Below, one piece after another: positions 5,704 to 14,807 of a DNA stretch of 32,784 nucleotides. Position numbers and translations under genes: made by a program. The number at the start of each line of letters is the position of its first letter. The stretch's first letter is position 1. The notes beneath the pieces were generated by a model that saw nothing but the letters and a program-made list of their open reading frames with translations, did not search any database and was not told the origin of the DNA. The stretch spans positions 1 to 32,784 of the forward strand of contig CAMJOZ010000009.1 in NCBI GenBank assembly GCA_946407635.1, given 5' to 3'. The DNA is from an uncultured Caryophanales bacterium. Lineage in GTDB: Bacteria; Bacillota_I; Bacilli_A; Acholeplasmatales; Anaeroplasmataceae.

Positions 5704-6819
5704 CTACAAAATAACTAAATCATTTGCGTGAATAATTTCTTTTTTAGCCAAATGATTTAATACACTTTCATATTCTTTAGTATTTAAACCCTTAATTTTA
5801 TCTATTTCGTTACTAGAAAAATTAGTAATACCTTTAGCAATCTTTTTACCACTTTCATCTAATACATCAATTATAGATCCTCTTAAGAATTCTCCTGTAA
5901 CTCTAGTTACACCCTTGGCTAATATAGATACCTTTTTTTCACTTAATTTATTGATTAAGCCTTTATCAAGGATAATTGCGCCACATGAATTAGTACTATA
6001 AATTAGCCAGTGATCTCTTGTTGTAATTCCTATTTCATTTTTCTTAAATAAAGTACCAATTACATCACCATTAATAATATCTAAAATATTACTAATTCTA
6101 TTAGAATTACAAATAATCATATCAACCTTAGCGCTTGTCGCAATCTTGGCAGCTGTTATTTTAGTAATCATACCACCAGTACCTACATTAGTTGATGAAT
6201 CAGAAACCATAGAATTTAATTCTTCTGTTATTTCTGATATTTCATTTATTAATTTAGCATCTTGATATAATTTAGGGTTTTTATCATATAAACCATCAAT
6301 ATCAGAAAATAAAATTAATAAATCAGCTTTAACAATTGGAGCGATCATTGAAGCTAATGTGTCATTATCTCCAACCTTAATTTCATCAACAGCTAACGCA
6401 TCATTTTCATTAATAATAGGAATAATTTTTTGTTTAAACATCTCATCAAGAGTATTAGTTAAATATAGCATTCTTTTTCTAACCTGGAAGTCATCATGAT
6501 TTACTAAAATCTGACCAACCTTTAAATTATATATTTCAGATGCTTTATTATAAGCTTCCATTAACTTAGCTTGACCTAAAGCTGCACAAGCTTGCTTTAA
6601 AGCCATAACACTTGGCTTTTTTGACATACCTAGTTCATGCATACCTAAGGCAATAGCGCCACTTGTTACTAAAACTACCTCAATACCCTTATCAATAAGA
6701 TTTTTAAAATTCTCCATAACGTTTACTATAACTGGTAAATTTATAGATAAATCCTTATTAACAAGACTTGAAGAACCTATTTTAACAACTACTCTTTTAA
6801 CATTCTTAAAATCTCTCAT
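5704..6819 (-). CDS. proB: Glutamate 5-kinase with C-terminal PUA domain
   Basis: First and normally feedback-controlled step of proline synthesis: ATP-dependent phosphorylation of glutamate. It has 371 residues, the long form with an amino-acid-kinase domain (1-260) and a PUA domain (about 275-371). Kinase landmarks are VVKIGSSSL (11-19), TSGAIALG (52-59), INEND (136-140), GDND (150-153), SDIDGLY (172-178) and GTGGM (213-217). The ATG start has an AAAGGAATG site upstream and lies 17 bases after the stop of the large degenerate GGDEF/EAL gene, so the two are probably co-transcribed. No proline-responsive leader is visible directly upstream. Confidence 0.97.
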   Translation of the reverse strand: MRDFKNVKRVVVKIGSSSLVNKDLSINLPVIVNVMENFKNLIDKGIEVVLVTSGAIALGMHELGMSKKPSVMALKQACAALGQAKLMEAYNKASEIYNLKVGQILVNHDDFQVRKRMLYLTNTLDEMFKQKIIPIINENDALAVDEIKVGDNDTLASMIAPIVKADLLILFSDIDGLYDKNPKLYQDAKLINEISEITEELNSMVSDSSTNVGTGGMITKITAAKIATSAKVDMIICNSNRISNILDIINGDVIGTLFKKNEIGITTRDHWLIYSTNSCGAIILDKGLINKLSEKKVSILAKGVTRVTGEFLRGSIIDVLDESGKKIAKGITNFSSNEIDKIKGLNTKEYESVLNHLAKKEIIHANDLVIL

Positions 6820-6836: not shown

Positions 6837-9800
6837 TTATTTAAAACTTTCAATAATATCTTTAATCCTCTTAACATTTTTATAATAGTTACCATAGATT
6901 AAATCAAAATTATTATTTTTCATATAAATCATATCTTCTTTAGTATTAACATTATTTATAATTATTTCTTTATCATGAAGCTTAACTAGATCATAAATAT
7001 CCTTAATTGAATCTAGTCCACCTAAATTATAATCATAAAATAAATAATCAACAGAATCTAAATAAATATCAAATATATTAGTTGTCGCTATTAAGAAGCC
7101 TAATTGTTTTAGCTCCTTAATATATTTTATATTACACTTATTAAAAATTAATACAATATATTTTGGATTAATTTTATAAAATGTAAGCTGTTTTTTGAAA
7201 AAATTAATATTAAAATCACTAAATAATTCTTCATGAAGTGGTAAATAAAATAATGCATAGCCAATACTATCTTTTAACATTTTTAATTCTTTAAAGGCAT
7301 TTACCATTAAATATTTATCCATTTCTTTAACTAAATTCTTTCTTTTGATAACCTCATACATCTTATCATATTCTATTTCATAGCTATCTAAAGTAAGCTT
7401 TAGCATAAAACCATACAATGATTTATTACTTAAATTAACTATTTGTTGATAACTAATAGCTATTTTACCTTTATCAATTCCTTCAGAAATCGTAGTAACT
7501 AAATTATTATCATAAAATCTCTTTTTAGATAATTCATTATCATAAAAAGCTATATGTGTTTTAATATCATCCATCATCTTAGCATCATTTAAAGCATCAA
7601 GTGCGTAATTTAAAGCCTCATAAGGCTCTTCTATATTAACACCCTTACCTTTTTTATAAACACCAACATTAAATAAGATTTTTAATCTTTTATTTAAATT
7701 ATCTAAATTTTTAGATGCATTAGATAATATTAATACTAATTTAGATTGTAATACTCTTTTATCAATAATATCTTTTGCAAGTAATACAAATCTATCTCTA
7801 TCTAAATGATATAAGCTAAAGCTATATTCACCTGCGATAGCTTCATTTAGTTTTAAGCCTAGTGCGTAAATTAATTGATTAGTAAAATTAATACCATATA
7901 AATCTTCATATAATTTAAAATCAATAACCTCAAGTGAAATAATACTATAATAATCTTCATTTATTATTTCATTAATATCTAATATTAGTTTTAATTCAGT
8001 ATTAACCTTAGATATTGGATTTAAATATGCAATATCTTTTAAATTATTTTTTTCTTCAATATCAGATGTTTTATTTTCTAATATTGATAAAATATAAATA
8101 CTATTATCATATACTAAAGGATACATTGATTCTTTAATATATTTAGTTACACCATCATTAGTTATTGTATAAGTAATTTCATTATCATGTTGATGATTTA
8201 ATGTATCATTATGAATTTGACGATATTTAGCTTGATATTCCTTATCAATCATATAAACATAATCAAGGAACTTCATATCCTCAATCGCACCCGTCATATT
8301 TATTGCATTATCATTAAAATGAATATAATCATTAGCGTATATTTTAATACCATTAGGGAAATTTTCTAATACCTTTAATTTAATTAGATTTTGATATTCT
8401 AATTGATTATTTTTAATTTCCATATTTAATCTAACACTAATAATATTACTTAATAATTTTAATGCTTCATAACATAAATCCTGATTTAAAAAATCTTCAT
8501 AAGAAATAAAAGCTATAGATGCAATAACACCAACATCATTATGTAGTGGCATTGCAAAAGCATTAATATTTTCATCATATTCTAGATTAGTTAAAATATT
8601 TTGATTATATACTCTATCATTTTTATTTAAGAATACTTCTTTATCATTTAAATAAGAAACATAATTAACTGTATTAGTTATTTCATCAATATCAATTAAT
8701 TTATCATATGCTCTTTCTTTTTTATAATGTAAACCTAAATACTTTTTATCATAATAAAGAATATAAGCCTCATCAATCTTATATTCCTTAGTTAATTCTA
8801 TACAAGCATTTCTAAATAATTCTCTAAATTTAGTATCTAAGTTACAGCATGAAATATCTTCAAATATTTTTGAAAGCTTTAAGAAATCTTCACTTATATT
8901 TATATCTATTTTGCCTGAAACTCTATTAATAATTTGTTCATTAACAACCTTAGTTTCAATCTTAGGATTTAATAATCCACCATGAAATTCACTTGATTGT
9001 TGAGGTGAAAAAGATATTTCAGGAATAACAATTTCTTCTTTAATAGGAGTTTTATTATTCTTTTTAGGTTGTGCTTTAACAATTGGCTTTTTTAATTCTT
9101 CTAATTCTTTAATCTTATCATGATATTCTTTAATAGATGAAATAGAATTAATTTTATTATATAAATCTAAAGCTGCGTAGCTAAAATTTATTTCTTCATC
9201 TATATATTTACCAATTAATAAATCTGAATATCTTGATTCAATAATTGAAGCTCTTTTATTATCAGAACATATTAAATATGTCTTTATTAAAATAGTTGCA
9301 CACTTCAAAGAATACTTTGGATCATCATTATTATCAGTTAAGAATTTATTACCTTCATTAATGACATCTATATATTTATTTCTTTCATAATTAATTAAAA
9401 TCTTATTAAAATTAATTTCTTTTAATGATTCAAGTCTTATATTATCTTTATAATAATCCTCTAAAGGCTTTATTATTTCTAAATAATTATCATATTCTTT
9501 ATTATCAAAATATAATCTAGATAATATTTCTTTTGCATAAATTTCTTCTTCTTTAGTAATATCATCATCTAAAAACTTTTTTACTATTTCTAAGGTTTTT
9601 ACCTTATCATCCATTTTAAGGAATAATCTAATTTGATCTTTATAATATTCACTAGATTGAGAAACAGCCAAATAATTCTTTTTAACTGTTATATATTTAA
9701 TTGCTTGATCATATTTATCATTAGTTATTGAAATATCAATAATAACATTACATATTTCGACTATAGATTTTGGTTCTAAATATCTAAATTCTGGAACGAA

Positions 9801-9980
9801 ACTATATACTAGCTTTAAAGCATCATTTGTTTTACCTAAAGAATCTAAAATAGTAGCTTTAAATGATACTGCTTTAATATATTCATATGAATTTTTTTCG
9901 TGGCTTGATAAAAATAAATCAATTTTTTTTATTGTTGATTGAGTTTTATCTAAGCATAAAATATCATTTAAGCTTGGCAT
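6837..9980 (-). CDS. Helical solenoid-GAF-PAS protein with degenerate GGDEF and EAL domains
   Basis: A 1047-residue cytosolic protein built like a c-di-GMP signalling enzyme but without its active sites. I see a TPR-like helical solenoid (about 1-295), a Lys/Pro-rich linker (about 298-345), a GAF-like domain (about 365-525), a PAS-like segment (about 535-640), a GGDEF-fold region (about 650-815) and an EAL-fold region (about 820-1047). The GGDEF motif is DRDRF (727-731). The EAL motif is MLK (859-861), and the VNxS, E-x-T-E, DDFG, catalytic Lys and EGVE positions all read differently. Neither synthesis nor hydrolysis of c-di-GMP is expected. Role inferred: sensor, nucleotide receptor or scaffold. 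ATG start with AAAGGAGG; 12 bases after the phosphoesterase gene and 17 before proB. No transmembrane segment. Domain boundaries are approximate and the GAF/PAS calls are by fold pattern. Confidence 0.85.
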   Translation of the reverse strand: MPSLNDILCLDKTQSTIKKIDLFLSSHEKNSYEYIKAVSFKATILDSLGKTNDALKLVYSFVPEFRYLEPKSIVEICNVIIDISITNDKYDQAIKYITVKKNYLAVSQSSEYYKDQIRLFLKMDDKVKTLEIVKKFLDDDITKEEEIYAKEILSRLYFDNKEYDNYLEIIKPLEDYYKDNIRLESLKEINFNKILINYERNKYIDVINEGNKFLTDNNDDPKYSLKCATILIKTYLICSDNKRASIIESRYSDLLIGKYIDEEINFSYAALDLYNKINSISSIKEYHDKIKELEELKKPIVKAQPKKNNKTPIKEEIVIPEISFSPQQSSEFHGGLLNPKIETKVVNEQIINRVSGKIDINISEDFLKLSKIFEDISCCNLDTKFRELFRNACIELTKEYKIDEAYILYYDKKYLGLHYKKERAYDKLIDIDEITNTVNYVSYLNDKEVFLNKNDRVYNQNILTNLEYDENINAFAMPLHNDVGVIASIAFISYEDFLNQDLCYEALKLLSNIISVRLNMEIKNNQLEYQNLIKLKVLENFPNGIKIYANDYIHFNDNAINMTGAIEDMKFLDYVYMIDKEYQAKYRQIHNDTLNHQHDNEITYTITNDGVTKYIKESMYPLVYDNSIYILSILENKTSDIEEKNNLKDIAYLNPISKVNTELKLILDINEIINEDYYSIISLEVIDFKLYEDLYGINFTNQLIYALGLKLNEAIAGEYSFSLYHLDRDRFVLLAKDIIDKRVLQSKLVLILSNASKNLDNLNKRLKILFNVGVYKKGKGVNIEEPYEALNYALDALNDAKMMDDIKTHIAFYDNELSKKRFYDNNLVTTISEGIDKGKIAISYQQIVNLSNKSLYGFMLKLTLDSYEIEYDKMYEVIKRKNLVKEMDKYLMVNAFKELKMLKDSIGYALFYLPLHEELFSDFNINFFKKQLTFYKINPKYIVLIFNKCNIKYIKELKQLGFLIATTNIFDIYLDSVDYLFYDYNLGGLDSIKDIYDLVKLHDKEIIINNVNTKEDMIYMKNNNFDLIYGNYYKNVKRIKDIIESFK

Positions 9981-9992
9981 TTTAGACCTCCT

Positions 9993-10436
9993 TTACATTT
10001 CGTATACTTTCTTTATAGTTTTTCCTATCATAAATTTAATTTTATTATCTTCAATTTCAACATATTCATCCTCTTGATAGCTACCAGGATTAATGAATAT
10101 TTTACCTTTATCTTTAAAATATGTCTGTCTATGAGTATGTCCAAATAAAACTATATCAACATTTGAAGATAATGCTTTAAGTTCTAATCTTAAATAATCA
10201 TATTTAACACCATATAAATCACCATGAGTAATTAAATATTTTTTATCATTAATATCAATTAATACTTCTTTTTCTCCATAAGAATCACAATTACCTTTTA
10301 CATAAATAATATTTTTATTATTAATGATATCTAATGAATCACCATAATCACCACAATGAATAATATAATCATATTTTAAAAAATCAAAATCATTTATTCT
10401 TCTTGAATGATTATCTGATAATATTAAAATCTTCAT
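9993..10436 (-). CDS. YfcE/MJ0936-type metallophosphoesterase
   Basis: Small cytosolic calcineurin-like phosphoesterase of 147 residues. It carries the metal-binding signature set: D-N-H near the N-terminus (SDNH), HCGDYGD, KGNCD, HGD and FGHTHR, then the INPGS strand typical of YfcE/YsnB proteins. The substrate is unknown; relatives hydrolyse phosphodiester model substrates. I chose the ATG at 10436 rather than the TTG three bases upstream because the AAGGAGAG site is better spaced to it. Its 5' end overlaps the end of rdgB by about 26 bases, so the two are coupled. The rdgB-phosphoesterase order matches Bacillus ysnA-ysnB. Confidence 0.93.
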   Translation of the reverse strand: MKILILSDNHSRRINDFDFLKYDYIIHCGDYGDSLDIINNKNIIYVKGNCDSYGEKEVLIDINDKKYLITHGDLYGVKYDYLRLELKALSSNVDIVLFGHTHRQTYFKDKGKIFINPGSYQEDEYVEIEDNKIKFMIGKTIKKVYEM

Positions 10437-11007
10437 CAATTCTCTCCTTGATTTTTCTGATGGCTTTAGCTCTATGAGAAATCTTATTCTTTTCTTCTAA
10501 AGAAACTTCTGCAAGTCTTTTTTTATATTCATCAACATAAAAATATGGATCATATCCAAAACCATTTTCACCTTTAGGTGTATCAACGATTTTTCCTTCA
10601 CAATAAGCAATTTCAGTTATTTCATCGCCATTTGGATAAACAACAGCGATAGCGCATGCATATCTTGCGAATCTATCTTCTACTCCTTTAAGGTTTTTAA
10701 TTAATAATTTATTATTTTCTAAATCGTCATGTCCACCAGCATATCTAGCACTATATATACCTGGTGCCCAGTTTAAGGCTCTAACCTCAAGTCCTGAATC
10801 ATCACTTATAGCAATACAATTTAAATCACGAGAAACAGTTCTAGCTTTAATTAATGCATTTTCAATAAATGAATTACCATCTTCAATGATATCTTTATCA
10901 TATCCAATTTCTTTTAATGTTTTAAATTCAATATTTGGATTATTGAACATAGATCTAAATTCATAAACTTTATGTTTATTGTTTGTTGCGATAACTATAG
11001 TTTTCAA
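10411..11007 (-). CDS. rdgB: dITP/XTP pyrophosphatase (RdgB/HAM1 family)
   Basis: House-cleaning enzyme that hydrolyses non-canonical purine triphosphates (dITP, ITP, XTP) to monophosphates, preventing their incorporation into nucleic acids. It has 198 residues, normal for the family. Motifs are ATNNKHK at the N-terminus, SDDSGLEV in the middle, PGIYSARYAG, GENGFGYDPYF and the C-terminal ISHRAKA. The start is a TTG (11005-11007) preceded by AGGTGAT; no in-frame ATG is available nearby and the protein begins at the expected place, so the rare start looks real. It is the first gene of the run leading to proC and is divergent from coaD. Confidence 0.95.
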   Translation of the reverse strand: MKTIVIATNNKHKVYEFRSMFNNPNIEFKTLKEIGYDKDIIEDGNSFIENALIKARTVSRDLNCIAISDDSGLEVRALNWAPGIYSARYAGGHDDLENNKLLIKNLKGVEDRFARYACAIAVVYPNGDEITEIAYCEGKIVDTPKGENGFGYDPYFYVDEYKKRLAEVSLEEKNKISHRAKAIRKIKERIDEDFNIIR

Positions 11008-11103: not shown

Positions 11104-11583
11104 ATGAAAAAATGTGTATATCCTGGTTCATTTGACCCAATTTCTAATGGTCATTTAGATTTAATAAAGCGAGCATCAAAACTTTTTGATGAAGTTCATG
11201 TCTTAATCAGTAATAACATATTAAAGTCTTCAACATTCACAATTCAAGAAAGAATTGAAATGATTAAAGAATGCACTAAACAATTACCTAATGTTATTGT
11301 TACATCATCAGATGGGTTGGTTGTTAATTATTGTAAAGAAAATAATATTAATATTATTGTAAGAGGAATGAGAAATTATTCAGATTATGAAGCTGAATTC
11401 CAACTATTCCAATATAATAGAGATATTTATCCTAATATTGAAACTGTATTATTGATGCCAACAACTAAATTACAGGTTGTTACATCTTCTGCGATAAAAG
11501 AGCTTGTCGCATTTGGAGTTGATATTTCTAAATATGTTCCAAAACAAATTGAAGCTAAAATTTTAGAGAAGTTAAAAAAATAA
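11104..11583 (+). CDS. coaD: Phosphopantetheine adenylyltransferase
   Basis: Penultimate step of coenzyme A synthesis: transfers AMP from ATP to 4'-phosphopantetheine to give dephospho-CoA. It has 159 residues, typical for CoaD. The nucleotidyltransferase motif GSFDP...SNGH (8-17) is at the N-terminus, VRGMR (86-90) lies in the middle and TSSAIKEL (127-134) carries the second ATP-binding motif. The ATG is preceded by GAGGTG (11092-11097). Single-gene unit on the plus strand, ending at a strong terminator. Confidence 0.97.
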   Translation: MKKCVYPGSFDPISNGHLDLIKRASKLFDEVHVLISNNILKSSTFTIQERIEMIKECTKQLPNVIVTSSDGLVVNYCKENNINIIVRGMRNYSDYEAEFQLFQYNRDIYPNIETVLLMPTTKLQVVTSSAIKELVAFGVDISKYVPKQIEAKILEKLKK

Positions 11584-11610
11584 TGGTGAATTTGAATTCA
11601 CCATTTTTTA
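11582..11610. terminator. Bidirectional terminator between coaD and the MBL-fold gene
   Basis: Perfect inverted repeat AATGGTGAATT (11582-11592) / AATTCACCATT (11595-11605) with a T6 run on the plus strand. It serves coaD and probably the convergent MBL-fold gene; the minus-strand T-tract is much poorer. Confidence 0.8.
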
Positions 11611-13937: not shown

Positions 13938-13960
13938 AAAAAGGCATTAAACAATGCCTT
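13938..13960 (-). terminator. Intrinsic terminator of the pectinesterase gene
   Basis: Stem AAGGCATT (13941-13948) / AATGCCTT (13953-13960), 4-nt loop, followed on the minus strand by a T5 run. It overlaps the pectinesterase stop codon. Confidence 0.82.
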
Positions 13961-14807
13961 AAAATTCAATATTTTTATAATAATCTAAAGTTTTATTAAT
14001 AAAATCTATTTTATTAAGTTTTTTCTTGTTATCAAAATCACCATTAATTATCTCAATTTCATGATAATCTGGATGATATTCTCTCATTTTAATTACATCT
14101 AATGAAATATCACCAACAAATTCAGAATCTATTACAGATAATCTAGGTACTACAGGTGATATTTGTTTAGATGGATACCAAGGTCTACAAATATAAGATT
14201 TAATCTCTCCATCCTGATTAAATAGAGATTTATATACTACAAAACCATGTCTGTTTTGAATTAATGTTGATGGTGCAAAATAATATGATCTATTAAATTT
14301 AGCACGAGATGTTATTGTTGAATTATAAATAACTAAGTCAGCACTACCAAATATAAAATCAATATCACCACTTATGTATGAATCTACAATTAAATTGTTA
14401 ATTCCATAATCAAAATATAATGTATCCTGATATGAAATAAATTTGCATTTATTTAAATAAGTATTTGAAGCTTCACTTTTAAAAGCAACTGCTTGTTCAC
14501 CATCTTCAGTTTTTTTCTCATGTGAATTTAAAAATGTTATTGAATAAGCATAAAAATCATGAGCTTCTTCTTTAACCATAAATGTCGCAGATTTGGTAGT
14601 CCCAAGCTTAATACCATCTCTTATAGTACTTGCTGTATCATCATATGAAATTGTAGTATTAGTTTTACCAACCATTTTAATAAAAGGCTTATCTACAACG
14701 ATTTTTTCATAATAAATTATATCATCAAGTATTATTGTATCATGGGGCTTTGCGATAAATAATGCCTCTGAAATATTCATTTGTTCTTTCTTTAAATCTA
14801 TAATCAT
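13959..14807 (-). CDS. Pectinesterase (carbohydrate esterase family 8), no signal peptide
   Basis: A 282-residue right-handed beta-helix protein of the CE8 pectin methylesterase family, which de-esterifies methylated galacturonan. Family residues are intact: Q105 in GEQAVAF, Q127 and D128 in YQDTLYF, D150 in SGDIDFIFG, and R208 and W210 in CRPW. The family N-terminus (I-x-x-A-L, then the Y-x-E-K-I strand) begins at once after the start, leaving no room for a signal peptide, so it probably acts in the cytosol on imported methylated oligogalacturonides (inference). ATG with GAGGTAAT upstream, own promoter and own terminator: a single-gene unit between obg and the DUF2156 set. No pectate lyase or sugar transporter is nearby. 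Confidence 0.9.
   Translation of the reverse strand: MIIDLKKEQMNISEALFIAKPHDTIILDDIIYYEKIVVDKPFIKMVGKTNTTISYDDTASTIRDGIKLGTTKSATFMVKEEAHDFYAYSITFLNSHEKKTEDGEQAVAFKSEASNTYLNKCKFISYQDTLYFDYGINNLIVDSYISGDIDFIFGSADLVIYNSTITSRAKFNRSYYFAPSTLIQNRHGFVVYKSLFNQDGEIKSYICRPWYPSKQISPVVPRLSVIDSEFVGDISLDVIKMREYHPDYHEIEIINGDFDNKKKLNKIDFINKTLDYYKNIEF

Follow-up and report, generated by a model that had tools for sequence, protein, structure and literature searches.

A degenerate GGDEF-EAL protein conserved across Acholeplasmatales and present in genomes without detectable canonical c-di-GMP enzymes

A GGDEF/EAL protein with degenerate motifs is usually interpreted as a c-di-GMP receptor. Does that reading hold for a protein that has the folds of a c-di-GMP enzyme and has lost the residues of both active sites? 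The question is raised by a gene, referred to here as Q, in the window, a 32,784-nucleotide stretch of DNA from an uncultured bacterium of Acholeplasmatales, an order of cell-wall-less bacteria. Q is a single uninterrupted frame with an ATG start (6837–9980, minus strand), and its 1047-residue product was identified from the reading frame, an AF2 model and order-wide orthologs as a TPR-GAF-PAS-pseudoGGDEF-pseudoEAL protein. The initial annotation, made from the sequence alone, had called it a giant GGDEF-EAL protein; the architecture stands, while "giant" overstates 1047 residues.

Genomic setting and domain architecture of Q

Q lies downstream of an rdgB-like gene (XTP/dITP pyrophosphatase, named by sequence resemblance; 10411–11007, minus), its most constant neighbor, and of a gene for a yfcE/MJ0936-type metallophosphoesterase (9993–10439, minus; Pfam PF12850, E 6e-23, and synteny). 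The 12-nt gap between yfcE and Q (9981–9992, minus) holds the ribosome site AGGAGG, a strong consensus site directly after yfcE (AAAGGAGGTCTAAAATG), and a 17-nt gap separates Q from proB (5704–6819, minus), the start of proBAC. The sequence check agreed with the initial annotation on both gaps and on the strength of the ribosome site. Terminator-like sites were found past proC (3668–3647) and past coaD (11582–11605), so rdgB-yfcE-Q-proB-proA-proC plausibly forms one transcript; promoter matches in the region showed no excess over shuffles. A few kilobases from Q, the window also encodes a membrane GGDEF-EAL protein (94–2289, minus) with a degenerate GGDEF motif (RLSDDHF) and intact EAL motifs (EAL, VNFS, DDFG, EGVE), which on these motifs is likely an active phosphodiesterase. 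A further reading frame (13959–14807, minus) was judged by eye to encode a pectinesterase-like protein, in a small gut-type mollicute-related genome.

An AF2 model of Q built from 57 aligned orthologs had a mean pLDDT of 87.3 and a pTM of 0.47; because of the latter value, the relative placement of the domains in the full-length model is uncertain. The N-terminus is modeled as a helical-repeat (TPR-like) solenoid (residues 1–298; 9087–9980, minus; helices spanning 4–297, block pLDDT mostly at least 90), followed by a linker at about residues 300–360 that is predicted to be disordered. Next come a GAF-like domain (363–539; 8364–8894, minus), which carries R386 and a hairpin reading Y419-K-K-E-R-A-Y-D-K427 and is supported by the model and by conservation in a motif-independent set of 49 sequences, and a PAS-like domain (540–637; 8070–8363, minus), recognized from the model and its Foldseek match to the PAS-GGDEF-EAL protein PA0861. 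The C-terminal part consists of a pseudo-GGDEF domain (638–814; 7539–8069, minus) and a pseudo-EAL domain (815–1047; 6840–7538, minus). PA0861 was the best fold match of Q in the PDB (Foldseek, E 5e-20), ahead of DosP, MorA, LapD and FimX. A phmmer search of Q against PDB sequences gave no match, and its Pfam scores fall slightly under the cut-offs (EAL, 30.0 vs 31.3 bits; GGDEF, 21.8 vs 23.8). Catalytic columns were assigned not from these weak matches alone but from a profile-profile alignment of residues 640–1047 with 16 GGDEF-EAL segments drawn from Acholeplasmatales (probability 100, E 1.4e-41, 402 columns). The AF2 model, the Foldseek matches and this alignment all place tandem GGDEF and EAL folds of the GGDEF-EAL superfamily in Q, and the order of solenoid, GAF, PAS, GGDEF fold and EAL fold first read from the sequence is borne out.

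Catalytic residues and c-di-GMP enzymes

That both active sites are destroyed, as first proposed, was confirmed for Q and for its family. In Q the GGDEF motif of the A-site reads DRDRF, EAL reads MLK with the ExLxR arginine replaced by T, and VNxS, DDFG and EGVE have become LPLH, TNIF and NNVN; with the EITE, lysine and glutamine positions also substituted, the entire phosphodiesterase set (E, N, E, DD, K, E, Q) is changed. Two sets of sequences were compared, the 57 orthologs and the 49 gathered without motif selection, and no catalytic column is conserved in either. Among the 49, the A-site glutamate expected of a diguanylate cyclase occurs in 6 and the first metal aspartate in 10, the VNxS asparagine occurs in 8, the DDFG, lysine, EGVE and glutamine residues are scattered, and the ExLxR arginine characteristic of LapD/FimX-type receptors occurs in none. 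Since the losses hold family-wide, they are not the product of misalignment, the error against which the initial annotation had asked for a check. Nor was an RxxD I-site seen in Q, where the sequence has E718 and F721 at the equivalent spacing.

Other positions are strongly conserved. Y695, D740 and R742 are present in all 49 sequences and G696 and Y425 in 48, while in the GAF domain K420 is K in 47 and R in 2, R423 is R in 45 and K in 4, K427 is K in 45 and R in 4, and R390 and R386 are found in 47 and 46, respectively. The conserved set thus comprises the GAF pattern [YF][KR]xx[RK]xYx[KR] with R386, and Y695-G696/D740-x-R742; as aligned, the residues kept by Q differ from those of an enzyme. 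The GAF pattern holds in the 49 sequences with one exception, at Y425. Invariance of YKxxRxYxK in a different alignment (A2) was discarded as circular because the motif had been the retrieval pattern for that set, so only the 49 sequences count as evidence for it.

In a profile search of 160 Acholeplasmatales genomes, 130 had matches to Q and 120 had orthologs, defined as strong matches with E below 1e-60. Outside genus g26, Q is full-length and normally single-copy in 120 of 131 genomes, and most of the remaining 11 are incomplete assemblies. It was not found in any of the 29 genomes of g26, which are reduced (0.3–0.9 Mb) and, judging by their size and family, presumably those of phytoplasmas, or elsewhere in the Bacilli among 395 genomes sampled at class level. 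Matches outside the order span at most the shared GAF-to-EAL part; the four that were inspected (G216 and others) had neither the GAF motif nor the rdgB context and were classed as ordinary GGDEF-EAL proteins. Scanning 84,980 species for the motif gave 59 confirmed Q loci. The named isolates among them all belong to Acholeplasmatales (including Acholeplasma oculi, A. granularum, Haploplasma modicum and Peloplasma aerotolerans), and the other loci are from MAGs titled to that order or less specifically. Nei-Gojobori dN/dS was 0.02–0.13 for close pairs and about 0.2 in two genera where canonical c-di-GMP enzymes were not found (g9, 0.271/1.246; g28, 0.330/1.638); pairs from the AT-rich genus g4 were saturated and left out.

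According to a survey of 60 genomes, most that carry Q also have c-di-GMP enzymes, and GGDEF/EAL enzymes are numerous in most genomes of the order. The genome of the window has 25 GGDEF and 11 EAL matches, and 14 GGDEF/EAL proteins have been reported for A. laidlawii (PMC2408644). For c-di-GMP INDEPENDENCE, PF00990 and PF00563 were then searched in 28 genomes, mostly picked for having few GGDEF/EAL matches; the enzyme survey covered GGDEF and EAL domains. Nineteen genomes from six genera (all 8 of g4, two each of g9 and g24, five of g28, G055 and G038) were found to contain Q and no canonical GGDEF or EAL protein, and 10 of these are at least 90% complete. Their EAL-type matches were Q or none, with one additional 66-position fragment in G038 (E 8.5e-4), and their GGDEF-type matches were Q, a second pseudo-cyclase of ∼470–530 residues, or none. 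These genomes thus appear to have no cyclase, and because Q is kept in them its function is most likely independent of c-di-GMP. In the majority of Q-bearing genomes, where such enzymes are present, Q may have a secondary c-di-GMP role.

The second pseudo-cyclase was read in 14 genomes, including that of the window. All copies belong to a single family whose members carry a membrane region, two PAS regions and a GGDEF-like region, with YRxSGxxF or similar at the A-site in place of GGDEF (L141:1814-3379 in G000:C5; L136, L137, L138, L139 and L176-L186). It is found order-wide and likewise persists without canonical c-di-GMP enzymes. The c-di-AMP phosphodiesterase GdpP was considered for the ∼520-residue GGDEF matches in the c-di-GMP-less genomes and rejected, as they have no DHH domain and show the membrane-PAS-PAS-pseudoGGDEF arrangement instead.

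These data bear directly on whether Q is a degenerate receptor of the LapD/FimX kind that reads c-di-GMP through its EAL pocket. Its fold matches to LapD and FimX and the many GGDEF/EAL enzymes in most genomes of the order are in keeping with such a role. However, ExLxR is reported to determine whether an inactive EAL domain binds c-di-GMP (PMC10333796), and its arginine is missing throughout the 49 sequences; the I-site is likewise not seen, and Q is kept where cyclases were not found. The missing arginine and this retention make a strong argument against a c-di-GMP receptor, which we consider unlikely. Of the "sensor or receptor" originally suggested, Q may still be a sensor or receptor of something else. 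It is just as improbable that Q tunes a local c-di-GMP network through heteromeric contacts with active cyclases and phosphodiesterases, itself binding no nucleotide. In E. coli, CdgI and CsrD are reported to make contacts of this sort (PMC5635695), and the genome of the window is rich in GGDEF and EAL matches, but the idea leaves unexplained why Q is retained, at a dN/dS of about 0.2, in lineages without these enzymes.

Gene neighborhoods across the order

We counted 54 neighborhoods of Q, 20 from the genus of the window and 34 from other genera, using BLAST labels to seed proteins for the neighbors; the names rdgB, proA, proB and proC come from the sequences of those genes. In 48 of the 54, one of the three genes preceding Q is rdgB-like. 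Within two genes downstream, proB was found in 13 of the 20 same-genus neighborhoods (two more have proC alone) and in none of the other 34, in which rdgB-yfcE, or a kinase gene and a gene for a protein with the motif RNDxVGHP, flank Q in place of proB. The rdgB-yfcE pair is an older context of Q than proBAC, as are, in Acholeplasmataceae, the kinase and RNDxVGHP genes. A link to proline supply had been proposed from the window, with a survey of related genomes as the check, and it did not survive that survey. A signaling scaffold coupling proline supply to a sensor would suit the 17-nt gap, the same-strand proBAC genes with a terminator-like site after proC, and the frequency of proB within the genus, but Q is far older than the linkage, and such a scaffold is very unlikely.

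In families other than that of the window, the gene directly upstream of Q encodes a choline-kinase/thiamine-kinase-like phosphotransferase in 20 of 26 cases (a small-molecule kinase: PF01633, E 6e-15; thiamine kinase TIGR02721, E 1e-21), and the gene directly downstream encodes an uncharacterized RNDxVGHP protein of ∼350 residues in 19 of 26. In Acholeplasmataceae the two genes flank Q in overlapping frames, as seen in G054, which we take to be A. laidlawii PG-8A and in which Q lies at C1:894930-897932. The RNDxVGHP protein is present in 106 of the 160 genomes, but its gene is unlinked to Q in the family of the window (G000:C4:25968-26903) and absent from several Q-bearing genomes (for example in g28), so no single partner explains all cases. 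The family is helical with an invariant motif (the locus just given, L102:8991-10055 and 32 others; A3), and had no Pfam match and no significant fold match in the PDB (Foldseek, best E 0.53; model pLDDT 90.6). An HEPN RNase label was considered for its invariant RxxxxxH and dropped, since Foldseek gave no HEPN match.

A decaying pseudogene or relic would account for the loss of every catalytic motif and for the frame break or stop in a few assembled copies (e.g. G049 and G093), but it is scarcely credible for a family of 120 orthologs with frames intact almost everywhere, low dN/dS and invariant non-catalytic residues. The initial annotation had favored a non-enzymatic protein over decay, and order-wide degeneracy, intact frames and a dN/dS of 0.02–0.13 support that choice. 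In G049 (C1:1082566-1086748) the Q sequence falls into two frames, of 736 and 321 residues, and the adjacent RNDxVGHP gene is broken as well; both genes are intact in its same-genus relatives, and the break is a sequencing error or a recent loss.

Proposed role and comparison with known systems

We think it probable that Q serves Acholeplasmatales as a dedicated regulator or scaffold and derives from a PAS-GGDEF-EAL enzyme. On this view all catalysis, together with the EAL-type binding of c-di-GMP, was lost before the lineages of the order separated, and the protein took on a different function. This reading builds on properties computed for Q: its fold and domain order, order-wide catalytic loss, purifying selection, occurrence almost throughout the order, persistence without canonical c-di-GMP enzymes and a stable operon context. 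In such a protein, the cytoplasmic TPR-like solenoid would dock a partner, and the GAF/PAS pair would use the conserved basic-aromatic hairpin to sense either a partner or a small ligand that is probably anionic. By analogy with the degenerate domains of CsrD or YdiV, the pseudo-GGDEF/EAL pair may pass the signal on as a protein-interaction module. Its output would likely fall on co-transcribed enzymes, namely the small-molecule kinase, the RNDxVGHP protein and the nucleotide and phosphoester enzymes, and not on proline synthesis. More tentatively, Q could have been rebuilt once, at the root of Acholeplasmatales, from a c-di-GMP enzyme into a core regulator that binds another ligand through the GAF hairpin and controls the kinase and the RNDxVGHP protein, forming with the second pseudo-cyclase a signaling layer that outlives c-di-GMP; this fuller scenario is possible, though we would not bet on it.

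A literature search on Acholeplasma, with subscription journals largely outside its scope, found no study of Q. Because both pseudo-domains are under purifying selection order-wide, even without c-di-GMP enzymes, Acholeplasmatales offers a natural experiment in which what a pseudo-enzyme does can be told apart from c-di-GMP signaling. Two uncharacterized order-wide families, Q and its RNDxVGHP neighbor, also gain a testable home in the cultured A. laidlawii.

Among known systems, LapD and FimX share with Q the fold, the tandem order and dead catalysis. They bind c-di-GMP, with ExLxR listed as the determinant (PMC10333796), and LapD reads KVL with the arginine kept (PMC3032553), whereas Q is without that arginine. 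E. coli CsrD resembles Q in that both domains are degenerate, and is a non-enzymatic regulator whose EAL pocket is not used for c-di-GMP (PMC10333796). However, CsrD, described from other bacteria, is a GAPES4-HAMP-dGGDEF-dEAL protein, while the N-terminus of Q is TPR-GAF-PAS, with no GAPES4-HAMP found in the AF2 model or a Pfam scan; Q further differs in that its ExLxR position is without arginine and in being retained by lineages that have lost c-di-GMP enzymes. The inactive EAL proteins YdiV and STM1697 have no catalysis, do not bind c-di-GMP and work by protein contacts (PMC10333796), as is proposed for Q, but they are stand-alone EAL domains from other organisms. GdpS of Staphylococcus, a GGDEF protein kept without other c-di-GMP components and acting independently of c-di-GMP (PMC9714401), offers the parallel in retention; it has a sole GGDEF domain with its signature motif present and no EAL domain, whereas Q has both domains, both destroyed. 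By architecture, Q thus stands outside CsrD, YdiV/STM1697 and GdpS.
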